Position numbers and translations under genes: made by a program. From positions 22,807 through 86,806 of IMG/VR virus record IMGVR_UViG_3300010399_000034: a stretch of 64,000 nt of DNA; one strand, given 5' to 3'. Below, one piece after another: positions 11,431 to 64,000 of the stretch (the stretch's first letter is position 1; each line of letters opens with the position of its first letter). Under the pieces are notes generated by a model that was given only the letters and a program-made list of their open reading frames with translations, searched no databases and was not told the origin of the DNA. The DNA comes from a virus.

Positions 11431-11831
11431 GTGTCATCGCTGCACGGTGGGAGCCCGAGGACGCTGCGGACTTGTTCACGATCGCGCGGTTGTTCTTTCC
11501 ACGAACGGGTTCGACTTGCGCGGTGGTGCTCGATGAACTCCTTGAACGAGCCGAAGACGAGCGCGCGATCGGGCTCGACCTTCGGTGCGTCTTTGAAGCG
11601 TGGAAGCTTCAGGACGTTGCGCGCGAGGATCAGCGAGCCGATGCAGTGCTCGCCGCGCTCGCGGCTCTCCCACTTCGTGAGCCACTCCGGATCTTCGTAG
11701 TCGATCGACTCGTGGCACGGGAGCGCTTCGTCACGTGCGATCGAGAGTGCGAACTCTTCGGGCATGGCTGCGCCGAGCCAGCCTGGCAACGACGTCCGGC
11801 GGAACGGGCAACTCCTGCAAGGCTTCTTCAT
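11427..11831 (-). CDS. DUF6283-like Cys protein
   Basis: 134 residues from an ATGA-coupled start. CRSCPFRR at the N-terminus, CHESID in the middle and CIGSLILARN after it match the phage-associated DUF6283 pattern (CxxCPWR, C-H, C). These cysteines probably bind a metal. Family assignment is from memory of the motif order. Adjacent to a ParB-like gene. Confidence 0.6.
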   Translation of the reverse strand: MKKPCRSCPFRRTSLPGWLGAAMPEEFALSIARDEALPCHESIDYEDPEWLTKWESRERGEHCIGSLILARNVLKLPRFKDAPKVEPDRALVFGSFKEFIEHHRASRTRSWKEQPRDREQVRSVLGLPPCSDDT

Positions 11832-12736
11832 GTCTCGAACTTCGAGAGCTTGCGGACGCCGTCCGTGTCGTAGCCGAGCTCGCGCAACGTAGAGATGAGG
11901 CCGCGGACCTGCTTGGCGCGGCTCTCTTCGCCGAGGACCCAATGAAGGAGCGCCCGCGCGTCGTTCGAGAGTCCACCGAGGAAGTCCTCGTTCTCGGCGA
12001 GCTTGCGCAGGACGGCGGTCCCCGGGCGCGCTGCACGGACCTCGCCCGTGGCGTGTCCATTCCCGTTGCTCTTGCGCATCTTCGTCTGGCGCTTCGCTTC
12101 TTCGACGGTGACGCCGAGCGTGGCGTACTCCTCAGCCTTCTCGCGCTGCTGTTCGCGTGGCAGATCGCGCAGGGTCATGGCGGCGGTCTGCGAGAGCCGG
12201 CGGTCGTGAACGAGGCGCTGTACCTGATCGTCGAGGTCGAGCAGGTTGAGCAGCGTCTTCACGCTCGGAAGCGGCAGACCCATCGTGACCGCTACGTCCT
12301 CTTCGGACCGCCCGAGATCGAGGTAGCGCTGCGCCTTGCGCGCCCGGATGATCGGCGAGTCGTCGACCCTGTTTTCGTTCTCGGCGAGCGTGATCCCGAA
12401 CGCGTCGCCGTCGCTCGTCCGCTTCACCATGCACGGGACCTTGATCGGCTCGCCGCCGGCTGCGACGAGGCGTTTGTTCGCTTCGCGTGCTCCGCGGACG
12501 CGTTGGCGGCCTGCGATGACCTCGACCTGTTCCCCGTTCTTGCGAACGAGCACCGGCTCGAGCACGCCATAGCACATGATGTTCTTGACCCACTCTTCGG
12601 TGAGTCCGAGATGGATCCGCTCGTCGTAGAGCGGGTGTTCGCGCCCATCTTTCGTGTCGAGCCCAACGATCGTCAGGTCGTCCGGGTCCATGCCGAACGC
12701 ATTGAGCCTCGAGCCCTCGAGTGCCTGCTTAGCCAT
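11828..12736 (-). CDS. ParB/Srx-type DNA-binding protein
   Basis: 302 residues. N-terminal ParB/sulfiredoxin-like domain with VLEPVLVR, VIAGRQRVRGAREAN (the GxRR-type nucleotide-binding box) and ITLAENENRVD. This is followed by a helix-turn-helix region (SEEDVAVTMGLPLPSVKTLL, LSQTAAMTLRDLP) and a C-terminal helical part. Such proteins bind CTP and DNA and act in partition or regulation; phage versions are often regulators. RBS AAGAAGGGTGG precedes the ATG. No ParA neighbour is seen, so regulation is more likely than partition. Confidence 0.85.
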   Translation of the reverse strand: MAKQALEGSRLNAFGMDPDDLTIVGLDTKDGREHPLYDERIHLGLTEEWVKNIMCYGVLEPVLVRKNGEQVEVIAGRQRVRGAREANKRLVAAGGEPIKVPCMVKRTSDGDAFGITLAENENRVDDSPIIRARKAQRYLDLGRSEEDVAVTMGLPLPSVKTLLNLLDLDDQVQRLVHDRRLSQTAAMTLRDLPREQQREKAEEYATLGVTVEEAKRQTKMRKSNGNGHATGEVRAARPGTAVLRKLAENEDFLGGLSNDARALLHWVLGEESRAKQVRGLISTLRELGYDTDGVRKLSKFET

Positions 12737-27925: not shown

Positions 27926-29410
27926 TCAGAGATGCGACTCGAGAATGTACGCAGTGATGTCGTCGACATCGCCAGGAGAGAGGATGAACGCCTCCCAGTT
28001 CGGATCGCCGAAGGCACGCAGTGCGAGCGCGACTTGTTCGCTGCCGACCGCCACCGCGTCGACCTGATCGTGCACGGTCGCTTCCACATTGTCGTGCAAG
28101 AAGCGCTGCCGATGCGAGACGCCGCGCAGGGTCGCGATCATGAACTGTGGAAGCGCAACGCCTGGCGACAAGCCGCACGAGGCGGGGACCTCGCCACACG
28201 GATCCCCGGTGCGCAGCGGACGCCCCGGATCATGCGCGTGGATAACGAACTCACCTGCGGGCGTCGCGAAGCGGTACGTGCGGAAGGGCAGCTCGGCCGT
28301 CGGTTGCAGCCCGCCCATCGCCGACGTGCGGTGAAGGCAGACTAGGCCGACGCCCGGGTAGTCGATAGGACCCTCCATGTCGACGTACGGCGCGCAGGTC
28401 CCGCTCGGACCAGGGGGCTGTCCGTTCGAACACGGGCATCCACCAGACGGGAGCGGCGGATACGGCGGCTGAAGCGGGTTGAACGGTGAAGTACGCATCA
28501 TCATCGGACCGCCGTGGCAGCTCGCGCAGAAGCCACGATGCGCCATGTCCGTGCTCAACATGGGTTGCTCGATCAAGAACTCGCGACCGCGCAGACACGC
28601 TGCCGTCGCGTGCGGAGGGCACTCCGGCGGACCGGGCTCCGCGCCACCACGCGCCATCTCCGCGAGCTCGGGCGAGCTGAAGAGCGAACGCTGGAAGTTC
28701 GCGATGTCCGTTCGCTGCTGAGCGGTGAACGGGATCGTCGGCTGGAAGTGATCGTTGAGCGCGCTCCCAGCTTGATGCGCAAGCTCGAGCTCCCGCCCAT
28801 CCCACATGATCCCGCCTCCGCGGTGATAGCCGAGCGGCGCGGTGCCGGGCTCCTTGAGCGCGACATTCAAGACGTGCGGTGAGGAGCGCCGTACGATCAC
28901 CTGGATACGGCCGTCGGGCAGCATGGTGATGTCGGGGTCGGTCCCGAGCTCGTCCACCGTAACGTTCGGCGGCAGGATGACCGGGATGCGGATGAGCGCG
29001 TGATCACGCAACACCGAGAAGTCGGCGCCCACGCCATCGTTCGAATCGATCGACCTGAAGAGTGGGTCCGTCGGGTCGACTGCAAAGACGGCTTGCGCAA
29101 ACTCGTCGCTCAGATCGAACGTCGCGTGCTCCTGGACGAAGTGTGCCCCAGTCAACGCAGCGAGAAGCGGCGGCTGCCCTTCCATGATCCCGGTTCGATA
29201 ACCGATGTTGAATGCACGCTCGACGGTCGTATGACACGACGCGCACGCGCGTCCATTCGTCCCGGGAGGCGAGTTATTGAAGAGCGCCCGTCCTCTCGCG
29301 ATGCTCGCCAGCATCGACAGGTCGAGATCAGCCTCCGTACGATCGACAGGACCCGGATCCGCACAACCGCAAATCAACGCAGCTACTAGTGTCAACAAGA
29401 CTTGTCGCAT
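27926..29410 (-). CDS. Di-haem cytochrome c-like lipoprotein
   Basis: 494 residues. Signal MRQVLLTLVAALICGC ends in a lipobox. Two haem-binding motifs are visible, CASCHTT (about residue 57) and CASCHGG (about residue 290), in a long protein rich in PP-GG segments, with HDP and methionine-rich stretches (GGPMMMRTS). This resembles MauG/cytochrome c peroxidase-type or electron-transfer cytochromes of GC-rich bacteria. Both haem cysteines and His are present. It would need host cytochrome c maturation and be anchored on the outer face of a membrane. RBS AAGGAGAG precedes the ATG; it sits in a phage gene run, with no redox neighbours. Confidence 0.75.
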   Translation of the reverse strand: MRQVLLTLVAALICGCADPGPVDRTEADLDLSMLASIARGRALFNNSPPGTNGRACASCHTTVERAFNIGYRTGIMEGQPPLLAALTGAHFVQEHATFDLSDEFAQAVFAVDPTDPLFRSIDSNDGVGADFSVLRDHALIRIPVILPPNVTVDELGTDPDITMLPDGRIQVIVRRSSPHVLNVALKEPGTAPLGYHRGGGIMWDGRELELAHQAGSALNDHFQPTIPFTAQQRTDIANFQRSLFSSPELAEMARGGAEPGPPECPPHATAACLRGREFLIEQPMLSTDMAHRGFCASCHGGPMMMRTSPFNPLQPPYPPLPSGGCPCSNGQPPGPSGTCAPYVDMEGPIDYPGVGLVCLHRTSAMGGLQPTAELPFRTYRFATPAGEFVIHAHDPGRPLRTGDPCGEVPASCGLSPGVALPQFMIATLRGVSHRQRFLHDNVEATVHDQVDAVAVGSEQVALALRAFGDPNWEAFILSPGDVDDITAYILESHL

Positions 29411-32821: not shown

Positions 32822-33329
32822 CGTCTTCTCCTGCGTCGTGCGTGCACGACGACTGCGCGAAGCCACCGAGCGCCTGGACGGCGTCCACGAACGTGTCCGG
32901 CAGATCGATCCCGCCAACCTCTTCGATAGTGCTCACGACGTCGCTCAGCGCGGTCAGCGCGCACGCCGCAGCAGAATAGAAGGTGAGCTCGGCGTCGTTC
33001 ACGCCTGCCTTCCATTCATCGAGGGCACGCTCGACGGCGAGAAGAAGGCCACGAGCGACCCGCACGACGCGCCGTGCCCGGTTGGTCGGCGTCATCAGCT
33101 CTTCGAAGCGGGCGAGCCCCTGCTCGATCGTGGTGATCGTGCCGGCGTCGACCTCGCGGATGACCTGCTCGCGCGCCTCGGGCCCGCGCACCTCTATCTG
33201 GTGCGCGATCCCCTCGTCGGCCACGTTGAGGCCTTCGCCGAGCTGTTCGAGGACCGTGCGCGCTCCGGCCGGCGGACCCCCGCAGCTCGCGAGCAGAAGG
33301 AGCACGGCGCTGACATTACTGCTTTTCAT
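32799..33329 (-). CDS. Predicted lipoprotein, 176 residues
   Basis: Signal MKSSNVSAVLLLLASC ends in LASC. The mature part is helical (EQVIREVDAG, ARFEELMTPTNRARRVVRVA) and ends in an acidic CTHDAGEDDGGSDGQ tail. Function unknown. Confidence 0.6.
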   Translation of the reverse strand: MKSSNVSAVLLLLASCGGPPAGARTVLEQLGEGLNVADEGIAHQIEVRGPEAREQVIREVDAGTITTIEQGLARFEELMTPTNRARRVVRVARGLLLAVERALDEWKAGVNDAELTFYSAAACALTALSDVVSTIEEVGGIDLPDTFVDAVQALGGFAQSSCTHDAGEDDGGSDGQ

Positions 33330-33613
33330 CGGGGGTCCCTCTCCTCTTGCTTCACGACCGGAGCCAACGCGGGCGAGCGCGCGATGCCGTGTGGCACGAA
33401 CAGCTTAGCGATCTCGAAGACCGCGACGACGCCGTCCAGAAACCGCACGAGCTTATCGTCGGCCTGGGTCGACGTCTTCTTCGCACGCTCCTTGATCGTG
33501 GTCTCGTTGAGGCGGTAGACGCCAACGAACGCGGTCAGCGTGCCGAAGATGGCCCAGCCCGTCTCTGCCGGATGCGCGAACACCCAGGCCCATGCCGTTG
33601 CGAGAAAGCCCAT
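33326..33613 (-). CDS. Single-span membrane protein, holin-like
   Basis: 95 residues. One or two hydrophobic segments near the N-terminus (WAWVFAHPAETGWAIFGTLT) and a charged C-terminal half. The size and layout fit a small holin, but no antiholin or endolysin pair is directly adjacent. Confidence 0.4.
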   Translation of the reverse strand: MGFLATAWAWVFAHPAETGWAIFGTLTAFVGVYRLNETTIKERAKKTSTQADDKLVRFLDGVVAVFEIAKLFVPHGIARSPALAPVVKQEERDPR

Positions 33614-36870: not shown

Positions 36871-39720
36871 TCACACCGAATACCAGTCATCGCCGATCTT
36901 GGCGACGGCAGGAAATGGCATCGCATCTGCCCCAGGAACCAATGTTAGCTTCTGCGACATACAACGCTCGAGGAGCGCCGCGACCTTGTCGGCTTTGTGC
37001 TCGTCGCATTCAACGTAGATCGCGTCGTGGACCTGCGCGATGATGATCGCAGTCGGGTCGACGCTCGGAAGTTGATGCGCAAGTTCGAGCATCGAGAGGT
37101 TCATCATCGATGCGACCGTTGAGTTCTTGCTGATGATTCCTGCACTGTCGTAGCGGTGGAGGTCGTGCTGGACAGCAAGCGTGTACAAGTCTGCGCTTTC
37201 CTCGAGCTGACACACTGCCGCAACGGTCCCGGTCGAATAGAGCTCAGCGTCGCGCCAGTCACCAGCAGCCTCCGTCATACGCTGAAGCGTGTGCGGGTTC
37301 GTTGTACCGCCGTGCGCCAACCGAGACCAAAGCACGTACATGCTCCGCTCCGTGGCGTACGAGAACGGGTTTCGTGGGTAGGTTTCAAGAAACCGATCAC
37401 GCGCGGCACGACCAAGACGATCATCACGACTGAAACGTTGTCGATCCGTTGGATCGCCGTAAGCGAGCTGGCTCCGCAGCAGGGAGCCAGCGAAGTTCAG
37501 CCGCCACGCCATGTGTCCATCGCGATCGGAGACATACGGTCCGTCGATACGCGAGGTCACGCCGCAACTTCGTGCGAGCAGTTGCAGGTCACGAAGCAGC
37601 TCTAGGTTCGGCGTGTTGGAAGACGGCTGCCCCATAGACAGCGTTCCGTCAGCGTCCATGTAGCCGAGAAGGAACGCTTTTCGCGCCGACAAGCAAGCAC
37701 GCCAGATCGAATCTGGTACGCGTTTCGTCTTGGCACGCCAAGTCGGGTCAACCCCCCAGGAGGGGAGAAGCTGTCGAAGGCGACTATCTGCGGCCACGCT
37801 GATTGCCGTCAATGGTCCGTGAACCTGGGCCTTCCAGAGGCCGCCGTATTGTATCGCCCAGCGTGTAAAGGACGCAGCGTACTCGTCATGCGCGAAGCGT
37901 TTTACACGTGTACCGAAGCACCACACAAGTTGGTCTGTGGAGCCGGTTCGTTGCGACCACGACCCGTTTCCGATCCAATACCCGAGCCAGTACGCGTCGG
38001 CGTCATTGAAAGGGGCACCGAACTCCTGCGCTGAGGCAAGCGGCTGCGCAATACGGTCGCCTTCACGTAACTCTCCAACAGCGCGCCATTCGAACTCGAT
38101 TCCGTCGTCACGAAGCACGCGAAGATAGTGTTCTTCGTTCGTCTGAAGTACATGCCCGTTGGTGAGCTTCGTCTCCCATAGTTGCTCAGTCCGCTTTCCA
38201 AGCGTCATCGATGGAGCCCATTGATTTGGCGCGCCGAGCGACGCGGAGCACGTCGCATGTTCCACCGGGAGATAGCCTTCTGTTGTAAGAACGCGCGTCC
38301 CGCCTCGAACGCACTGCATCTTGTAGTTGTATACAACTGTCGCATCGATCAAGAGAAGCGGGAACTCGCGACGACGACCGATGAGCGCGTCGGTGACACG
38401 GCCAGTTCGCTTGGCTTCAGTGAGCTCGCGCTCGCGCCACGGCCGCACCGACGGGAACGCTTTGAAGATCGCGGCGAGGATCGTCTCGACCGTCGCGATG
38501 TCGATCGGCATGCCCTCGTAGCCGCCGTCGTAGATGGAGTTGAGGATCGTCTCCGACCCAGCGCCGTAGAAGCTGCCGTAGATGACGCGCTTCTCGAGAT
38601 CGCGCAGCGCTGACCGCGTCTTGTCGTCGGCCTTGAGGTAGCCGTCCTTGAACGCGATCGCGCTCACGTACGCGTGTGGGTCGCAGTCGGGCTCGTACTT
38701 GCGCGCTTCGTCAGCGTTGACGCAGAGCGAGATGAGCTTCTCGTCGCCGCAGAGCGCACCGAGCACGCGAAGCTCAGCCTGTCCGAGGTCGGCGCCGACG
38801 ATCTTGCGGCCCGGCGGCGCGACGATGCACTCGCGGATGCCGGGCACCTCGAGCGTGATCTTCCCTGGCTTCGCCTTCGCGAGGAAGATCTCGTCGCCAG
38901 GAAAGAGCGGAAGCTGCCATGGACCGCCGTGCGGTCGGCCCTTGCTGTCGAGTGCCTCGAAGATCGCAAGCATGAGAAGGATGCGCTTCCCCCAGTTCAT
39001 TAGGTTCGGCTCGCTGCTCCATCTCCCGGTCCTCGCACCGAGCGGCTTCCAACGCACGCGGATGCGCCAGTCCTGCGAGACCGGCATCCCCTCGATGTAC
39101 GTCGACTTGATCTTCTCCCAGCGACGATAGTCAAGGAGCAGATCGACGAACGGATGACCCTTGTAAGAGAGCAACGACGATTTATCTGTCGATGGCTGCC
39201 CTTGTGGATGCGTCTTGCTCGGGTCGGTGTACTTCATCGGAAGCAGCCGACACGGCCCGTTCTTGTCGTAGAGCGCCCACGCGAGCTGCGGAGGACTCGT
39301 AGGGCTAAAGTCTGGCCGACCCGTGAATGCACGCAGGAGCTCGACCGAACGCGCCATGTAGAAATCAGAACGCTGCGACCAGCGGATCCACCGTTCTCGA
39401 CTCACTGGCAAGCCGGCGCGCTCGACGTCCTTCGCGACGTGGAACATCCCGACGTCGAGGTCATGGACGAAGCGTGCGTTCTCTGCTTCGAGCTCGGTGA
39501 GCTGCGAGAGCATGGAGAGCGTCGTATTGTAAACGTCGCGACCGTTGTAAGCGAAGAGCTGCTCGTTCGACTCCCAGACCTGCTGCCCGCCCTTCTCCTT
39601 CGGCGGCTTCCACGGCGGCGTGTCGGTGTAGCAGCCGGCGATGTGTTGCAAGCGATGAGGCTCGTCGGGATGAACGGCGTTGTGCGCGATCTCGGTGTCG
39701 TAGACGTAGCCGCGAGTCAT
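36871..39720 (-). CDS. polA: Family A DNA polymerase with intein, split exonuclease
   Basis: 949 residues; ATG in an ATGA overlap with the UDG gene. N-terminus GYVYDTEIAHNAVHP and YNGRD (about 58-62) is the third exonuclease motif, but motifs I and II are encoded at the end of the previous gene. Polymerase motif A is GADLGQAELRVLGAL, motif B RDLEKRVIYGSFYGAG, motif C VHDAIYVE with Ala in place of the usual Glu after His-Asp. The C-terminal palm follows the intein. It should be the phage replicase and lies in the replication cluster; expression as a separate product would give a truncated exonuclease. Confidence 0.92.
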   Translation of the reverse strand: MTRGYVYDTEIAHNAVHPDEPHRLQHIAGCYTDTPPWKPPKEKGGQQVWESNEQLFAYNGRDVYNTTLSMLSQLTELEAENARFVHDLDVGMFHVAKDVERAGLPVSRERWIRWSQRSDFYMARSVELLRAFTGRPDFSPTSPPQLAWALYDKNGPCRLLPMKYTDPSKTHPQGQPSTDKSSLLSYKGHPFVDLLLDYRRWEKIKSTYIEGMPVSQDWRIRVRWKPLGARTGRWSSEPNLMNWGKRILLMLAIFEALDSKGRPHGGPWQLPLFPGDEIFLAKAKPGKITLEVPGIRECIVAPPGRKIVGADLGQAELRVLGALCGDEKLISLCVNADEARKYEPDCDPHAYVSAIAFKDGYLKADDKTRSALRDLEKRVIYGSFYGAGSETILNSIYDGGYEGMPIDIATVETILAAIFKAFPSVRPWRERELTEAKRTGRVTDALIGRRREFPLLLIDATVVYNYKMQCVRGGTRVLTTEGYLPVEHATCSASLGAPNQWAPSMTLGKRTEQLWETKLTNGHVLQTNEEHYLRVLRDDGIEFEWRAVGELREGDRIAQPLASAQEFGAPFNDADAYWLGYWIGNGSWSQRTGSTDQLVWCFGTRVKRFAHDEYAASFTRWAIQYGGLWKAQVHGPLTAISVAADSRLRQLLPSWGVDPTWRAKTKRVPDSIWRACLSARKAFLLGYMDADGTLSMGQPSSNTPNLELLRDLQLLARSCGVTSRIDGPYVSDRDGHMAWRLNFAGSLLRSQLAYGDPTDRQRFSRDDRLGRAARDRFLETYPRNPFSYATERSMYVLWSRLAHGGTTNPHTLQRMTEAAGDWRDAELYSTGTVAAVCQLEESADLYTLAVQHDLHRYDSAGIISKNSTVASMMNLSMLELAHQLPSVDPTAIIIAQVHDAIYVECDEHKADKVAALLERCMSQKLTLVPGADAMPFPAVAKIGDDWYSV
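37123..38313 (-). other. Intein in DNA polymerase with LAGLIDADG endonuclease
   Basis: 397 residues between Gln and Ser of the conserved Q-(G/S)-T motif (NYKMQ then STVASMM). Starts Cys1 (CVRGGTRVLTTEGY), contains block B TNEEHYLRV and ends SKN, followed by Ser+1. The penultimate residue is Lys rather than His. Homing endonuclease motifs YWLGYWIGNGS and FLLGYMDADGT are both present with Asp. Removal restores an uninterrupted polymerase. Confidence 0.85.
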
Positions 39721-50666: not shown

Positions 50667-50881
50667 TTCGCCTCCCAGCCACGCGCGTTGAGCTCTTCGA
50701 ACAACGCCACGACTTGCATGATCTTTGCGCCGCTCCAACCAGCAGCAACTGCGAGCGCGACATCAAGTTCGATTGGCCCCCACGCGAAGCAATAAACGAA
50801 GCGTCCGTTGACGGCGATGCTTGCGCGCTTTGGCCAACGAAGTACCAGCGTCCCATCAGGCAACTCTGTTTCGCGACTCAT
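50663..50881 (-). CDS. Hypothetical protein, 72 residues
   Basis: ATGA-coupled to the SNF2 gene. LPDGTLVLRWPKRASIAVNG and AKIMQVVALFEELNARGWE; no domain recognised. Confidence 0.5.
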   Translation of the reverse strand: MSRETELPDGTLVLRWPKRASIAVNGRFVYCFAWGPIELDVALAVAAGWSGAKIMQVVALFEELNARGWEAK

Positions 50882-53580
50882 CCTATCCTCCTGGCCCAAT
50901 CGAGCGTGCGTTGCAAGCCGGCGTAGAGCTCTTCGCGCGGAAGCAAGTCTGCGAGCTCGTTCGGCGCTTCGTCGCCGGTGACATCGAGGATCGGCTGACC
51001 CTTCCGATCGAATGCACGTGCGATGATGTCATCGATCGTGTTCGACGCGACAGGCCAGTACGAAGTGACCGGCCACGCCTGACCGATGCGGTGCGCCCGC
51101 TTCTCGGCCTGAAGCATCTTCGCCGGCACCCAATCGAGGTCGTGCATGATAACGTGCCGCGCCTTGTGGAGCGTCACACCGACGCCGAGCGAGTCGATCG
51201 TTGCAATGATAGCGCCGCCCATCGACTGAAACTCGTCGACTACTTCGTTTCGTACCTTGTGCGTCATGCCGCCGTGGACGACGTGGATCTTGCCGAAGCC
51301 GGCATCGTAGAGCTTGCCGAAGAGTCGCTCACACATCTTGCGCTCCCAACAGAAGATGATGACCGACTCGTCCTGCTCAAGGACGTTCTTCGCGAGCTGC
51401 ACGGTTGTATCGAACTTCGCGCGCGAGGTCAGCTTCCGCAGACGACCGATGTAGCCGAGTGTCTGCTTCGAAGCGCGACGATGGAGGACGGCTTGAATAA
51501 GCTCCTCCATCGGAATGTGCTCGAGGATCTCTTGGTAGTCCGCCATCTGTTCTTGATCGAGCTCGACGTGGATGAGCTGACGCGTGAGCGGCGGGAGCTG
51601 AAGTCCGGCGCTCTCGACGTCGCGACGGATATAACAGCATGCGAGACGCTGCTTGAGCTCGTCCACGTTGGTCGCCTCGACGCCATCCTTGAGGCCGTAC
51701 TGCGTTGTCTGCGCGCCGCAGTAGCGGATGCGAAAGTCGCTCGGCTTGCCCCACGTCCACTGCCCGGTTGCGAGCGTCAAGAGAAACCAGAACTCCTCGA
51801 CGCGGTTGAGGATCGGCGTGCCAGTGAGGATGAAGCGATACGGCGCACTCGAGACGGCGAGGGCGACAGCGGCACCACGTCGCGAGCGGCTGTTCTTCAC
51901 CATGTGCGCCTCGTCGAGCACAGCGACGCACGGCCGACGGATCGCAATGTGACTCCACCAGGCTTTCAGGATGTCGTAATGGCAGAAGATCCAGTCGACG
52001 TCCGCGGGAATCATCGTCGGCTTCATGCCACGACAGACGAAGACGTTCGTGATCCCGCACGCTGCGAGCTCGCGAATCCAGACTTCCTCGAGCGCCTTAG
52101 GCGCAGTGATCAATGCTGGATGCCAGAAGCCTCGATCGCGCGAGTACGACTTCCGCAGGAGCTCGCCAGCAAAGCCAGCAACACGCGAGTTGTGCGTAAG
52201 AATCGCGTGCTCGGTCACATACAACGCGTCTTCAGCGTCAACTGCAATACAAACCGATGCCTGTTCGCCTACGTATTCAACCGTAGTAACAGTTCGGCAC
52301 GGACGCGCCAAACGGCCCGGCTTATAGCGATCTAGTTTTCGAGCAACTGTGAACGGAGCAATCGACTGCGGAAGACGAAGCCGCACATGATATTCCCTCG
52401 GCTTATTTTCCTGACTTCTGTCGTAGGAACGAACACTTGCAATCCCGCCAAGACATTCAACGAGCTCGCGAACGTCATCTGCAAGTCCTGCACTTATCGT
52501 GTGATACGTCAACTTGCTTCGCGTAGCACTACATGAACCGTCGCCGTCCATCAGCCCATGAAGCAATGCAACACGATCAGCGATAGAAGCACGAAGGTAG
52601 CTCTGCGGGATCCGCTTCGTGGCGCTAAGCTTGTTTAGCCCTAGTGCTCTAATACGAGGAAGAAGCCCAGGGTACGTCGAATGAATCACATTGGCGTAGG
52701 CGCTCTCGCCCCCCAAAACAACACCGTCTGCCAAAAGTCGCTTTTTGATCGTAGGCCAGTCGTGCTTGGAAACAACGAGCTTCGGCGTGCTGTACGCCAT
52801 GGAACCATTGGCGATAAGCTGACCAAGCAAGTACGCCGGGATCGGCAACGTCGTCGCAACGAACTCTGCTGGTGCCGACAGCGTCGGAAGATAAAGAACA
52901 GCTTTCGCGAGATCCCGCACAGTTTCACGACGCGTCCCTCGAGACCACTGCAACGTGAGCTTTGGACGCGTCCGCAACTGTTCTGTTGTAAGCAACAACG
53001 CACGCCCGTTGCGACCAACAGTGACAGTCCAAAGGTGTTCTGCCCCCGCAAGTGTTGAGCTGTGATCGCTGAAGGTGACACGGTACGTCGGCTTTACACC
53101 TTGTGGATATACGCCAACAACGACCTTCGCCTTTCCATCAGACCCAAGCACATGATCGCCAACACGCAAATCACCGATCGGCTGCCAACCTGATGGTGTA
53201 AGCACCGGCGTCTCAACAGGCTGCTGCTTGCCGAGCCCCATTTGGTCACCGAGGACCGCGTGCGGGTGCCTAATAAGAAAACGGACGCCGACTCGTTGAT
53301 GCTGAAAGAGGCTCTGCCATGTCGGCCACAGCTCTAACGAGGTGAGCACGTCATCCAAGACAGGCATCACTGGAACAGAGATATCGAGCTTGGCAAGCCA
53401 CACACCGATCGCCGTCTCGCTCCACGCCGTGAACGGGATCTCGCAACGCCAGAGTTGATAACCGGGATCCGGCTCGCGCCAGACGACGCCGGGGATGTCG
53501 AGCACGGCCTGCGGCACGACGAACTTCTTGTCGTCTTGCACCCATAGCCACCAGAGCGACGGTCGAAGAGCCTGGATCAT
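50878..53580 (-). CDS. SNF2-family helicase with intein
   Basis: 900 residues. After the intein is removed, Walker A GDQMGLGK joins SRVAG; motif II is VLDEAHMV, motif III ILTGTP, motif VI QAEKRAHRIGQ, and HGGMTHKVRNEVV lies in the helicase C-terminal lobe. SNF2-type DNA translocases in phages take part in replication or genome remodelling. The intein disrupts the ATP-binding loop until spliced. Confidence 0.88.
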   Translation of the reverse strand: MIQALRPSLWWLWVQDDKKFVVPQAVLDIPGVVWREPDPGYQLWRCEIPFTAWSETAIGVWLAKLDISVPVMPVLDDVLTSLELWPTWQSLFQHQRVGVRFLIRHPHAVLGDQMGLGKQQPVETPVLTPSGWQPIGDLRVGDHVLGSDGKAKVVVGVYPQGVKPTYRVTFSDHSSTLAGAEHLWTVTVGRNGRALLLTTEQLRTRPKLTLQWSRGTRRETVRDLAKAVLYLPTLSAPAEFVATTLPIPAYLLGQLIANGSMAYSTPKLVVSKHDWPTIKKRLLADGVVLGGESAYANVIHSTYPGLLPRIRALGLNKLSATKRIPQSYLRASIADRVALLHGLMDGDGSCSATRSKLTYHTISAGLADDVRELVECLGGIASVRSYDRSQENKPREYHVRLRLPQSIAPFTVARKLDRYKPGRLARPCRTVTTVEYVGEQASVCIAVDAEDALYVTEHAILTHNSRVAGFAGELLRKSYSRDRGFWHPALITAPKALEEVWIRELAACGITNVFVCRGMKPTMIPADVDWIFCHYDILKAWWSHIAIRRPCVAVLDEAHMVKNSRSRRGAAVALAVSSAPYRFILTGTPILNRVEEFWFLLTLATGQWTWGKPSDFRIRYCGAQTTQYGLKDGVEATNVDELKQRLACCYIRRDVESAGLQLPPLTRQLIHVELDQEQMADYQEILEHIPMEELIQAVLHRRASKQTLGYIGRLRKLTSRAKFDTTVQLAKNVLEQDESVIIFCWERKMCERLFGKLYDAGFGKIHVVHGGMTHKVRNEVVDEFQSMGGAIIATIDSLGVGVTLHKARHVIMHDLDWVPAKMLQAEKRAHRIGQAWPVTSYWPVASNTIDDIIARAFDRKGQPILDVTGDEAPNELADLLPREELYAGLQRTLDWARRIG
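52189..53226 (-). other. Class 3-type intein in SNF2 Walker A
   Basis: 346 residues inserted between GLGK and Ser. The first residue is Gln (QQPVETPVLTPSGW), not Cys or Ser. The Trp-Cys-Thr triplet of class 3 inteins is present: Trp in EHLWTV (block B), Cys in SVCIAV (block F) and Thr in LTHN (block G), before Ser+1. LAGLIDADG motifs YLLGQLIANGS and LLHGLMDGDGS show a homing endonuclease. Confidence 0.85.
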
Positions 53581-58983: not shown

Positions 58984-59426
58984 CACGTCCAATCCTCGCA
59001 GGGCTTGTCCGTCGGCCGGGGCATCGGAGGCTGCTCCTCGAACGCCCAGATCCCCGACGCGCCTCCGCCGATGTGCTTCAGGCACCCGCCGTAGTCCTCC
59101 CATTTGCGGGCAAGAGACGGCCGGAGCTCCCGTGCCGCGGACGATCCGTGCGCCGTCGCCGGGTTGTCGTGTCCGGCGATCCCCATCTGCGTCGGCTCGA
59201 GGTGCATCGTCGCCTTGGCAAAGGACGGGTTGATCCGCATCGCCTCGTTCCAGAGGCCTTTGCTGAAGTGCTTGCAGAGCCCGCAGCGCTTCGGGACGAG
59301 GCCCTGCTCTGCGGCAAGACGCTCCAAGCGTGGGTCTTCTATGACCTTTTGGCCTACGACAGGGAGTCTGACCACGGACTCCGCCGTACGGCGCACTCCG
59401 GAGCGGAGGCGATCGAGGATGCTCAC
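58983..59426 (-). CDS. Zinc-finger protein (CGLCKHF), paralogue of 58449-58832
   Basis: 147 residues; GTG 5 bases after AAGGAGAT. CGLCKHFSKGLWNEAMRI and CLKHIGGGASG; the Cys/His pattern resembles the neighbour. The last gene transcribed before the origin-like region. Function unknown. Confidence 0.55.
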   Translation of the reverse strand: MSILDRLRSGVRRTAESVVRLPVVGQKVIEDPRLERLAAEQGLVPKRCGLCKHFSKGLWNEAMRINPSFAKATMHLEPTQMGIAGHDNPATAHGSSAARELRPSLARKWEDYGGCLKHIGGGASGIWAFEEQPPMPRPTDKPCEDWT

Positions 59427-59721
59427 AGCGTATCTCCTTGAGACATTCGGACAACCGAGATGAGGCGCCGCCATGTGCGCCGAGACTTCCTTTCGCTGTA
59501 CTACAACCTTTGCACACAGATGGGAATGTACGTTTTGCACCTACATGTCCGACACGGCGGGCGCGTGGGTACGCTCGGTCCTCGATGGCTACGTGCGAAC
59601 ACGTCGATCCGTGGACGCGAGAAGCGCGCAGCGTGCCGCTTAGGAAGAAGTCGAGCGCGCATAGGGCGGAAGTCGCTACGCGCGACTGCTTCTTACGCGC
59701 GCGTGACTAATAGCCACGTAC

Positions 59722-59759
59722 GCTAAGCGTTCGCTAATGCGCAGCTAAGGTTCGGCTAA
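59722..59759 (+). repeat. Four GCTAA motifs at 11-bp spacing
   Basis: GCTAA at 59722-59726, 59733-59737, 59744-59748 and 59755-59759, in helical phase, followed by the palindrome GGCTATTAGCC at 59767-59777. Likely bound cooperatively by an initiator. Confidence 0.75.
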
Positions 59760-60110
59760 GGCGTATGGCTATTAGCCTCACGTAGTCTTACGCGTAATAA
59801 GAGGCGAGACTGTTAGCCACACTTACGCTAACGCGTCGCAATAGGACGCGTTGGCGGCGCTTGGCGAGGGTCACTGCGTCCAATGAAGGCCTCGTGCTCG
59901 CAGTATACGCCTTCAGGAGGCACGTTTGGCCGCCAGGCGGATGAAGACAGCGGGGCGAGGTGCGGAGGCTCAAATACGCCGTTGTACGAGGTAATGCACG
60001 AGAAAATAACGAGCGCTAAAAGCTGAGTGGTTTCATATATATACATATGTAAGAAATCTTTTTTTCTTATATATCTTATTCTCTTGCCACCCCCCTCGCC
60101 GGACCCGAGT

Positions 60111-60169
60111 GAGACTGTTAGCCACAGTGGTCTTCTTATTTAGCGAGGTGGTCTTCTTATTTTAGCGAG
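60111..60169 (+). repeat. Composite direct repeats
   Basis: GAGACTGTTAGCCACA (60111-60126; also 59806-59821) runs directly into two near-identical GTGGTCTTCTTATTTAGCGAG units (60127-60147, 60148-60169). All contain TTAGC. Confidence 0.75.
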
Positions 60170-60354
60170 CTCGCTAACCCCTCCCCGGGGGATCCCCCAC
60201 CCTCGACCACGAAATAATGAAACAATACCTAACTAGTTGATATCGTTGGCGAAATCGATTTCTCGTCGCGTCGAAAAAATGCTAAACAACACGAGACAAA
60301 TGCCTCGCGCTAATAAGGAAGAACAGCAGAAGAACAGCGGAGCGCTAAATAACG

Positions 60355-61704
60355 CTAGTTAGGCTTGTTCTTCTTCGCTTCGAGGATGAACCACGCTTCC
60401 ATGCTGAACACGGTCTTGCGTGGACGTCCGGGCCGACCTGTAGAGGCCGTCTCTTCTACCGCAGCGCCAAGATCGACGAGTGTTGCTACGAGCTCGTCGA
60501 TCTCACCGCGGCCCAGGTTCCCCGAGAAAACCCGATGGATCTGGCTGCGCGTGCAGCCGAGGAGGCCCGCGGCTTTCACCGCTTCGATTGCGCGTGCGAC
60601 CTTCTCACTTTGCTGCATGTGTGGGAGCCCGAGCTGAACCCCGAGCGCTGTACCGCGGTAGAAGCAGCGTGTGACGAGGTTCGCCGCACGGATCACGTCG
60701 TTGACCGTCACGTAGACGTATGGCGGCGCTTGCGCATCATTTGGGTCGTCCACGAGGAACGAGCCGCGACTCGCGGCGTAGATCGCTGCGATATGCTGCG
60801 CGTGCTCGGGGGCGCGGAGTGCGAGTCCCGCTTCAACGTCTTCCTTCGCGATACGGCCACGCAGGAGCTCGAAGAAGACGTTGTCGAGCCAGTACGTCGC
60901 CTCTGGCGCGAACTCGACGATCGGACGCATGCCACGAAGGCGTGCCGCTTCGAGCAGCCCGAACCAGTTGTCCCAAGTCCATAGGACGCGCGCGAGGCCG
61001 AGGTCATCCTTCAGCCTGCGAGGCTGAAGATCGCCCGGGCTGATCTGTTCGTGAAGCCAAAGGAAGCGGACGAACAAGCCGCCCTCGAGAATCTCTGGCT
61101 TGATCACGCGCTCGAACGCCCGCGGCGTCGTCGTCACGACGGCAGAGAAGGCGGGGTTCTTGATCTGCGCCTGCGAGTTGCTCTGCCCGATCTCAGCAGC
61201 CTTCTGGAGATAGCGAAGGTTCCGCGTGTAGTCGCGCCCGTCGTAGATCTCGTTCAGCGGCTCGACGACGTCATCGAGACGGACGACCTTCGAGAACTCG
61301 TTGTGGTAGAGGATCCCCGCGGTACGCCCGCGCTCGTCCGTCAACGTCGAGATCGCATGAATGACGCCGGGGAGTGATCCTTCGAGGCTCACCCACGGCT
61401 TAGGCTGCGCGCCGTCGCGGAAGCGGTCCTTGTAGAACGCCTCGGAGAACTTGCGGACCGCCCCGAGCGTACTCGTCTTGCCGACCGAGCTCGGTGCGAC
61501 AACGCCGAACCAGACGCGCGGTGAGCCGAACGTGTCACCGAGCGTCACTCCGCGCCGACAGAGCTCGTAGCCTGCGAGCGGGAGGATCGCTGCGAGGTGC
61601 ATCGTCGGGGGCGCATGCGAGAGCGGCGCCGCCCATTCGACGTATTCTCGGATTGGCCCGCTCTCCGGCAGGCAGTTTCGAAGCTCGTCAGTAAGCTTCG
61701 CCAC
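60355..61704 (-). CDS. DUF3987-like ATPase/helicase
   Basis: 449 residues; GTG after AAGGGTGGATCC. PSSVGKTSTLGAVRKF is a Walker A; ILYHNEFSKVVRLDDV and AVVTTTPRAFERVI lie in the ATPase core, as in DUF3987 replication-linked proteins. The C-terminus has a winged helix (ARAIEAVKAAGLLGCTRSQI). Location beside the origin-like region suggests a replication initiator or helicase. Confidence 0.72.
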   Translation of the reverse strand: MAKLTDELRNCLPESGPIREYVEWAAPLSHAPPTMHLAAILPLAGYELCRRGVTLGDTFGSPRVWFGVVAPSSVGKTSTLGAVRKFSEAFYKDRFRDGAQPKPWVSLEGSLPGVIHAISTLTDERGRTAGILYHNEFSKVVRLDDVVEPLNEIYDGRDYTRNLRYLQKAAEIGQSNSQAQIKNPAFSAVVTTTPRAFERVIKPEILEGGLFVRFLWLHEQISPGDLQPRRLKDDLGLARVLWTWDNWFGLLEAARLRGMRPIVEFAPEATYWLDNVFFELLRGRIAKEDVEAGLALRAPEHAQHIAAIYAASRGSFLVDDPNDAQAPPYVYVTVNDVIRAANLVTRCFYRGTALGVQLGLPHMQQSEKVARAIEAVKAAGLLGCTRSQIHRVFSGNLGRGEIDELVATLVDLGAAVEETASTGRPGRPRKTVFSMEAWFILEAKKNKPN

Positions 61705-61802
61705 GGATCCACCCTTGACGATCCATCAGCCGACCTACCTTCCCAACCGAAGACCGTTCTACGACTACACGGCAGCTTTCGCAAGGAAGACCGTCAGGCG
61801 AA

Positions 61803-61844
61803 TCAGCCGTTGCTGATCGTGTGCGCGTGTGGTACGTCTCTCAC
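61803..61844 (-). CDS. Possible 13-residue leader peptide
   Basis: GTG with AAGAAGGGTG about 7 bases upstream encodes MRDVPHAHTISNG. It lies 100 bases upstream of the DUF3987-like gene; several AAGGGTG-like sites occur here. Could be a leader; expression is unproved. Confidence 0.25.
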   Translation of the reverse strand: MRDVPHAHTISNG

Positions 61845-61902
61845 TGATCCGCACCCTTCTTTCAGCCAGGGCCGCCTTCCAACCAACCAAAGGCCCGATT
61901 CT

Positions 61903-61942
61903 GAACGCCGCGTCGGCCACCCTTCGACGCGGCGTTCCTTTT
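61903..61942. terminator. Strong hairpin with CTTTT tail
   Basis: GAACGCCGCGTC (61903-61914) and GACGCGGCGTTC (61926-61937) make a perfect 12-bp stem followed by CTTTT on the + strand. It lies between divergent genes, so either an untranslated + transcript ends here or it blocks read-through. Confidence 0.65.
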
Positions 61943-62024
61943 GGTTGTCTCCGAGCTCGACTGGGAGTACTGTGCGCCTAGGTGGTGTGTCCTCGGCCTG
62001 CCCTAAGCCAAGGCGGAGGCCGCG

Positions 62025-62663
62025 GTGTCCGATCTGGGTCGACTTCGTTCGATGGCTCGCGGGAGCCAGGGACGATCGCAGACGTGGGAGACTGGCGACA
62101 GCCTGGTCAACCACATCGAGCTGATCCGTCGGCAGGTCGAGATCTCGATGGCCGATCCGGAGACGCGTTCGCTCGCAGTAGCGATCGTCTCGGGTGCGTT
62201 CGATCGCGTGCAGGTCGGGCCAGGTTCGTTCGTCCCGGGCGTTCCGTACCACGGTCGTTATTACCGCGGCGCAGCGGACTGGGCGTCGGCGCAGACGCTC
62301 TGTGAGCAGCGCGACGACATGTGCGAGCTGACGCAGCTCTGGAACTTCGGCGTGCTCAACGTGCGTTACCTTCAGGACGCTGCGGGCGAGGACACCTACC
62401 AGACGCTTCGCGCGACGCTCGAGGCGGGCGGCGGGGACTGCGACGACTTCTGCATCCTCTTCGGGTCGCTCGCAGGCGCGATCGGCTATCGATCGATCGC
62501 GCGCGTCATCTCGGTACACGGGGACACGTGGGATCACATCTATCCCGTGATCAAGACGCGTCGCGGCGGCTGGGTCGCGCTTGATGCGACCGAGAAGGGC
62601 AAGCGAGCAGGCTGGGAGTTCTCCTCGCCCGCAGCGCGGCAAGACTTCTGGTTGGTGAAGTGA
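62025..62663 (+). CDS. Transglutaminase-like cysteine protease
   Basis: 212 residues, GTG start with GGCGGAGG upstream. Cys in GGGDCDDFC, His in DTWDHIYPV and Asp in WVALDAT form the transglutaminase-type triad. This fold occurs beside virion genes in some phages of related hosts and may process structural proteins. First gene of the rightward run. Confidence 0.78.
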   Translation: MSDLGRLRSMARGSQGRSQTWETGDSLVNHIELIRRQVEISMADPETRSLAVAIVSGAFDRVQVGPGSFVPGVPYHGRYYRGAADWASAQTLCEQRDDMCELTQLWNFGVLNVRYLQDAAGEDTYQTLRATLEAGGGDCDDFCILFGSLAGAIGYRSIARVISVHGDTWDHIYPVIKTRRGGWVALDATEKGKRAGWEFSSPAARQDFWLVK

Positions 62664-62806
62664 TGGACCAAGACGAGGCCACGCTTCACAACGCGACGCT
62701 CTTCATCAACGTGATGAAGGTGGGCTCGATCGTTTCGCTCGTCGGGGTCGGTGCGTGGTTGATGTGGGCTTGGGATCCGGGCCCGATGCGAAAGAAGAGG
62801 CGCTGA
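62663..62806 (+). CDS. 47-residue single-span membrane protein
   Basis: TGATG-coupled at both ends. MDQDEATLHNATLFINVMKV, one span (GSIVSLVGVGAWLMWAW) and a basic end (MRKKRR). Design matches the peptide at 24405-24545. Function unknown. Confidence 0.6.
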   Translation: MDQDEATLHNATLFINVMKVGSIVSLVGVGAWLMWAWDPGPMRKKRR

Positions 62807-63450
62807 TGTTCGGACACAGCATGTTCATGCGACGGCGCACCTTCGCGCCTGGTCCGTACGGGACGCCGATTCAGGTGCCCGTGCAGTTCCGTACGTTGCC
62901 GTGGATTCTCGGAGCGCGTACGCACGCGTTCCCGAAGCAGGACCGCGTCTCGTTCGACAACGCTCTCGCGAACCCTGCACCGAACAGCGGGAACGGGATC
63001 TCGCACGGCACGTACTTCCTTTCGTCGTGCTGGCACCCGTACTCCGATCCCATGACGGGCATGCGCGCTCTCTCGGAGGGACAGAAGCAGTTCCGCGACA
63101 TCCAGGAGCGCGCTGCGTACAAGCACGCCGCCGGGATGCCGCTCAACGAGACCGAGGCGCGGACGATCCTTCCGATCAACACGCCGCTCACGCCGAACTG
63201 GCCTGCGATCCATCGCGCTGAAGCGCATGGTGCAGGACAGCAGACTTTCGACGCTCGGCAGATCGCGTACTACCCGAAGGGCAACGGCATGCCTGCTGCG
63301 GTCTACCGCGTCGCGCAGGCGCTTCAAGATCCATTCGCACAAGCGGATCCCCGGCAGATCGTCTCGCGCTCGCGCAATGCCGCGGACGTGATGGGCCGGC
63401 AGGTTCAGCAGGTCATGCGCGTTCGGCCCACGAAGATGAGCCACAGGTGA
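62806..63450 (+). CDS. Hypothetical protein, 214 residues, possible virion protein
   Basis: TGATG-coupled. MFGHSMFMRRRTFAPGPYGT and GISHGTYFLSSCWHPYSDPM; no known domain. The rightward position among transglutaminase and unknown genes suggests a virion component, but this is unproved. Confidence 0.5.
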   Translation: MFGHSMFMRRRTFAPGPYGTPIQVPVQFRTLPWILGARTHAFPKQDRVSFDNALANPAPNSGNGISHGTYFLSSCWHPYSDPMTGMRALSEGQKQFRDIQERAAYKHAAGMPLNETEARTILPINTPLTPNWPAIHRAEAHGAGQQTFDARQIAYYPKGNGMPAAVYRVAQALQDPFAQADPRQIVSRSRNAADVMGRQVQQVMRVRPTKMSHR

Positions 63451-63451
63451 A

Positions 63452-64000
63452 ATGATGTACGGCTGGTCCGACTACGGCTTCTACGGGGACGTCACGTTCC
63501 CTCGGCAGAATCGATTCAAGGCGTACGACCGGAGCAACAACGGCCTCGGTGGTGTGCGTCCTGTTTTGAGCGGCAGTGGCTATCGCGCTGCGCTCGGCAA
63601 GGTGGTGAGACCCGGTATGGCCTCCGCACGACAGCTCGACTACAACATGTTCGCTCGCATGGGGATTCGTCCGGCCGGGATCGGCGGTGGCGGACTCGGT
63701 GCGACCGATCGAGAGATCTGCTCGATCCTCACTTCCACGGCGGGCGCGCTCACGAGCGGCGTGACGCAGGCCGCACTCGGCGCGCGTCCTACGCAGCGCG
63801 CAGGCGAGACGAACAGCGCATTCAACCGTCGTCTGACCGACTGGGAGACGCAGACGCGCGTCGGCTCGACGGCGGGTACGTCGCTCACGACCGCATCGCG
63901 CCTCTGCGACCTGATCGATCAAGCGGACACCTCGCAGGGCAGCAACCCGTCGGTCCAGGGCGGTCCGTCGGCGTGGGAGCTCGCGGCGGCGCGCTCCGAG
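63452..64000 (+). CDS. Hypothetical protein, 3' partial
   Basis: Begins ATGATG at 63452 and stays open to the window end (183 residues). Gly/Ala/Arg-rich with MASARQLDYNMFARMGIRPA and EICSILTSTAGALTSGVTQA. Likely a virion or virion-assembly protein; function unknown. Confidence 0.5.
   Translation, partial: MMYGWSDYGFYGDVTFPRQNRFKAYDRSNNGLGGVRPVLSGSGYRAALGKVVRPGMASARQLDYNMFARMGIRPAGIGGGGLGATDREICSILTSTAGALTSGVTQAALGARPTQRAGETNSAFNRRLTDWETQTRVGSTAGTSLTTASRLCDLIDQADTSQGSNPSVQGGPSAWELAAARSE

Follow-up and report, generated by a model that had tools for sequence, protein, structure and literature searches.

A candidate iteron-type replication origin beside a stand-alone DUF3987 helicase gene in an IMG/VR virus

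The closest described counterparts of the locus considered here come from SaPI and SCCmec elements, where the C-terminal domain of SaPI Rep and SCCmec Cch2 binds short iterons situated directly downstream of the protein's own gene, and where Cch2 needs the 5-nt iteron AAGTG (PMC7581432). Classic plasmid iterons measure 17-22 bp (PMC4980987). In the partition system of plasmid R1, ParR requires at least two of the 11-bp repeats of parC (PMC9426499). DUF3987 domains, for their part, have been predicted to be replicative helicases of mobile elements, and the winged helix that ends DUF3987-carrying primases has been suggested to recognize origins (Kazlauskas et al., PMC5862659). Helicases of this family are common in many phages and mobile elements; in the literature that we searched, no paper links them to a mapped origin.

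We analyzed a window of 64,000 nucleotides, comprising bases 22807-86806 of the 86,806-bp IMG/VR virus record IMGVR_UViG_3300010399_000034. The record begins and ends with the same 123 bases (L003 1-123 and window 63878-64000), which makes it probable that the virus assembly is a closed circle and, at about 86.7 kb, complete. With gene boundaries set by a simple codon-usage gene call, the longest non-coding gap of the window (Table 1) spans 928 bp and the next longest 367 bp, and, under a similar call, no gap in the record's first 20 kb exceeds 522 bp. Small open reading frames of 88-90 aa within the gap were dropped by the gene call. The genes on both sides run leftward: the DUF3987 gene, beside which a preliminary description of this DNA had placed the gap and whose stop codon borders it, and a 147-aa gene whose GTG start at 59426 is preceded by AAGGAG, a good ribosome-binding site, and whose product has no Pfam match. 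The same description had called the gap the only long, AT-rich non-coding stretch of the window; its length stands, whereas its A/T-richness as a whole is only moderate (GC 0.53 vs 0.62). The A/T-rich tract that it had placed within the gap is present: the GC minima of the entire 86.8-kb record at 40, 60, 100 and 200 bp all lie inside the gap, that at 40 bp at 60035 (GC 0.125) and that at 60 bp at 60026 (GC 0.20), and the tract sits between the four-copy forward GCTAA group and the 22-bp reverse group. We consider it likely that the gap works like a replication origin with a self-loading helicase initiator.

Table 1. Features in and around the non-coding gap, in window coordinates (strand., not stranded).
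Feature	Position	Strand	Remarks
First gene of leftward operon across the gap, 147 aa	58983..59426	-	gene call; no family
Non-coding gap, candidate replication origin	59427..60354	.	longest window gap by gene call; 15 GCTAA; no Rfam match
17-nt inverted repeat around the four-iteron array, left arm	59700..59716	+	82% complementary
Four GCTAA iterons, exact 11-bp spacing	59722..59759	+	run arose twice when ten sites were placed at random 200,000 times
17-nt inverted repeat, right arm	59766..59782	-	holds palindrome GGCTATTAGCC (59767-59777) and a reverse GCTAA
16-bp direct repeat GAGACTGTTAGCCACA, copy 1	59806..59821	+	holds a reverse GCTAA
Inverted repeat/hairpin, 12-bp arms	59826..59856	.	GCTAA inside
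A/T-rich tract, candidate unwinding element	60031..60085	.	record-wide GC minima at 40 and 60 bp
16-bp direct repeat GAGACTGTTAGCCACA, copy 2	60111..60126	+	
Three reverse GCTAA iterons, 22-bp spacing	60118..60166	-	adjoining 15-bp direct repeats GTGGTCTTCTTATTT (60127, 60148)
Three forward GCTAA (60281, 60309, 60344)	60281..60348	+	near helicase gene stop codon
Stand-alone DUF3987 helicase-like protein, 449 aa, proposed initiator	60355..61704	-	PF13148; candidate C-terminal winged helix
Divergent transcription point, 320 bp	61705..62024	.	raw cumulative GC-skew minimum at 61925

Read on either strand (GCTAA/TTAGC), GCTAA occurs 15 times in the gap and 15 times in all of the window's other 63 kb, and it is absent from the 22.8 kb of the record outside the window. 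The frequency in the rest of the window predicts 0.23 copies in the gap (Poisson p about 1e-22); elsewhere in the window, a stretch of 928 bp never contains more than 2, and the copies outside the gap are unclustered. Ten copies lie on the plus strand (59722, 59733, 59744, 59755, 59827, 60015, 60173, 60281, 60309 and 60344) and five on the minus strand (59772, 59813, 60118, 60140 and 60162), in agreement with the earlier claims of four motifs exactly 11 bp apart and of more than ten additional copies in both orientations. The repeats had also been described as helically phased, which can be upheld with confidence only in the run of four and in the 22-bp trio: a 10.5-bp period is significant when all sites are used (p=0.004) and loses its significance once runs are collapsed (p=0.20), so that we set aside the phasing of all 15 sites. 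The constant part of the repeat is GCTAA alone, mostly with C or G before it, while the spacers vary; the repeats therefore look like a candidate protein-binding core rather than a recent tandem duplication.

A core of this kind could be bound by a repressor or activator of the leftward operon that starts at 59426, in which case the gap would be a long regulatory leader. It does directly precede the first gene of the leftward block, its sites run in both orientations, and origins often double as control regions. However, sigma-70-like promoters in the gap number 0 where 0.6 were expected, a regulator leaves the A/T tract unexplained, and 14 of the 15 GCTAA copies outside the gap fall in genes rather than ahead of other operons, which gives no hint of a regulon. 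With the GCTAA cluster confined to one place and not spread over promoters, we regard an operator or promoter array as unlikely.

The palindrome that had been noted after the four-copy array is found as GGCTA-T-TAGCC, and the larger direct repeats noted with it correspond to two copies each of GAGACTGTTAGCCACA and GTGGTCTTCTTATTT, the former having no further copy within 3 mismatches across the record besides those at 59806 and 60111. We also considered a structured non-coding RNA encoded in the gap, for which the 120-base stretch 59802-59921, folding better than its shuffles (z about -3), would speak. This signal, however, was traced to a short inverted repeat, most other stretches fold like shuffles, no Rfam match was obtained up to E=1, and GCTAA lies on both strands; with no more than local hairpins, we rejected an RNA gene, which we find scarcely credible.

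The protein encoded beside the gap matches PF13148 (DUF3987) at 38.5 bits against a curated cut-off of 27, and at 27.7 bits by six-frame search; DUF3987 is the sole domain that reaches its Pfam cut-off in the 449 residues, and DUF927 and Primase_Cterm (D5-like) do not. An HTH_31 match at residues 374-419 is weak (E=0.085), and a single-sequence structure model was unusable (pLDDT 35). Its alignment with nine phage primase-helicases covers their helicase and C-terminal parts and shows a shared P-loop (APSSVGKTS vs APTGTGKEA) and shared motifs TP..F and GL..RF; the pairwise match to the ctUnS216 protein extends over 144 residues (30%, E 4e-7). It is without the N-terminal primase part of these phage homologs, and no primase gene was recognized in the record.

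Set beside SaPI Rep and SCCmec Cch2 (PMC7581432), the locus has the same layout, with a helicase gene followed immediately by a non-coding stretch of short repeats, the repeat-bearing gap here starting at the stop codon at 60355, and the iteron core is about 5 nt in both cases. The differences lie in scale and in protein architecture: the Cch2 site comprises three AAGTG iterons, whereas 15 GCTAA extend across 630 bp here, and the DNA-binding part of SaPI Rep and Cch2 is the C-terminal domain, whereas the winged helix is only a candidate in the window protein. Moreover, Cch2 and SaPI5 Rep carry Primase_Cterm and Cch and SaPIBov1 Rep carry DUF927, whereas the window protein carries DUF3987; since the helicase domain differs, we place the gap/helicase pair outside the SaPI/SCCmec families.

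A second set of likenesses is to the origins of RK2, F, P1 and R6K, where direct repeats with helical spacing stand beside an A/T-rich tract and the initiators are winged-helix proteins; the gap likewise has regularly spaced direct repeats, an adjacent A/T-rich region and, alongside, a candidate initiator gene whose product has a candidate winged helix. In contrast to those plasmids, with their iterons of 17-22 bp and Rep proteins that lack a helicase domain, the core here is 5-6 bp and the candidate initiator is of the helicase type, and we count the shorter core against an origin. The 11-bp direct repeats of the ParR-parC system of R1 are also reminiscent of the four-copy array, which could accordingly be read as a partition (centromere) site on which a ribbon-helix-helix adaptor, like ParR on parC, would segregate a plasmid-like prophage. 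While the exact 11-bp spacing matches R1 parC (PMC9426499) and the record does encode a ParB-like protein, the gene for the latter is about 47 kb off and of a different partition type, no ParM, ParR or ribbon-helix-helix gene was recognized among the searched flanking genes, the sites here occur in both orientations, and a centromere needs no A/T-rich tract such as the one present. We judge this reading quite improbable.

For comparison we used nine phages that have complete records and a DUF3987 primase-helicase. The most A/T-rich 200-bp window of the genome lies 0.2-1.4 kb downstream of the DUF3987 gene in five of the nine (phage 73, FtMidnight, KL1, shaaii_LB5 and Langgrundblatt2), a count that is supportive but gives no strict probability, since the nine are partly related to each other. 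In RcSpartan the corresponding window is farther downstream, at 3.8 kb. Ab_SZ3 and VspDsh_1 have it ahead of the gene, about 0.7 kb from the start, and in ctUnS216 it is separated from the gene by 5.5 kb; this last distance and the partial relatedness of the phages were counted against the origin. In Achromobacter phage shaaii_LB5, 10 of the 13 genomic CCGAAAAC copies fall within 240 bp directly behind the DUF3987 stop codon, five in reverse and then five in forward orientation, followed by an A/T-rich tract. Positions 33013-33359 of this genome (OQ817841.1), which hold the two opposed CCGAAAAC clusters and the A/T tract behind the primase-helicase gene, thereby give this named phage a clear candidate for its origin. 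In the other A/T-rich gaps tested, repeat enrichment over a first-order shuffle was weaker or absent.

The likeness extends to the surrounding genes. The leftward block of the window contains genes for a family-A polymerase, an SNF2 helicase (its matches distant, at about 30% identity), a Sak4-like protein, an exonuclease, a DUF669-like protein and a D12-class adenine methylase, and this replication module is similar in gene content to those of phages with DUF3987 primase-helicases. In Septimatrevirus, Kilunavirus, Lokivirus and other phages of this type, the primase-helicase has a homologous helicase and C-terminal region, an A/T-rich repeat-bearing gap lies near its gene (immediately downstream in shaaii_LB5), and Sak4, SSB, exonuclease, helicase and family-A polymerase are found nearby, features that resemble those here. 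Their proteins differ in having an N-terminal primase part, the window protein consisting of the helicase and C-terminal parts only, and their gaps carry other repeat words, with no GCTAA array in common.

We scanned IMG/VR for runs of four GCTAA spaced by 11 bp and obtained 37 stretches, among which five lie beside terminase genes in unrelated viral contigs (L013, L014, L019, L031 and L038) and one beside a replication-initiation gene, a result that we count against the origin. These neighbors indicate that the 11-bp array serves more than one purpose, and it is the A/T tract and the helicase neighbor that carry the origin argument. The terminase neighbors are also what would commend a packaging site (pac or cos) bound by a small terminase; yet no terminase gene was recognized among the searched proteins of this record, both flanks included, the genes flanking the gap are the replication helicase and unknowns, and the A/T minimum would go unexplained, so that such a site seems to us very improbable here. 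In the five contigs themselves, four GCTAA at exactly 11 bp may represent a packaging-site motif.

We posit that the DUF3987 protein, encoded directly upstream of the gap, would be the self-loading initiator helicase of the virus. Its C-terminal winged helix would bind the GCTAA iterons, a direct array of four copies to one side and copies in both orientations to the other; the protein, once assembled, would then melt the A/T tract and be loaded there, the family-A polymerase of the virus would extend primers made at the opened site, and replication would start at the gap. Anatomy, homology and the comparison across DUF3987 phages make an iteron-type origin, at which the neighboring DUF3987 protein would act, the best-supported reading, and the origin advanced in the preliminary description is supported, though not proven, by the repeats, the A/T minimum, the adjacency of the DUF3987 gene and the phage comparison. 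GC skew, which had been put forward as a check, does yield a minimum at about 61.9 kb, but this coincides with the divergence of transcription and does not discriminate. Detrending shifts the minimum to 55485, and the coding-strand skew is similar in genes that a fork leaving the gap would meet co-directionally and in those it would meet head-on; because skew tracks gene orientation, it is uninformative for the origin and we dropped it as evidence. Protein scans with the DUF3987, 741-aa, UDG-containing and structural-candidate proteins found no relatives of the virus, which we likewise count against the origin; the sole IMG/VR match (L002) was spurious, involving 24 residues of an unrelated structural protein.

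A broader proposal is tentative and may well prove too bold: that a stand-alone DUF3987 protein, its primase part lost or never possessed, is itself a self-loading initiator that binds the origin by reading a 5-bp iteron, and that in viruses with no other relationship DUF3987 helicases generally mark their origins by iterons and an A/T tract close to the helicase gene. If the pattern, which is clearest in Achromobacter phage shaaii_LB5, holds, the origins of DUF3987 viruses would be predictable from sequence, and DUF3987 would, if the proposal is true, become the third self-loading initiator family alongside those of the DUF927 and D5-like helicases.

We note several further features of this virus. 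Intein/LAGLIDADG insertions occur in the family-A DNA polymerase and SNF2 helicase genes (window 36871-39720 and 50878-53580). The ParB-like protein (window 11828-12736) could point to a plasmid-like prophage or to a role in binding DNA during infection. A rightward operon, about 20 kb long (window 62025-63450 and L003 243-18668), codes for small proteins, of which several have likely membrane segments, and is headed by a transglutaminase-like protein, possibly of cysteine-protease fold; among the proteins of this operon that were searched, PHROGs and Pfam recognized no capsid, portal, terminase or tail genes, and the virion might not be tailed. Several of the operon's proteins (L003 243-6522; window 62025-62663) bear an N-terminal (L/M/V/F)RGLG or NGGLG motif, which we take to resemble viral maturation-protease sites. 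Three tandem paralogs with about 31% identity (L003 6610-8827) are possibly structural proteins, for which a structure model was unusable (pLDDT 35). Finally, window 27926-29410 encodes a putative lipoprotein similar to di-haem cytochrome c peroxidase/MauG, with CxxCH motifs, an unusual cargo for a virus.
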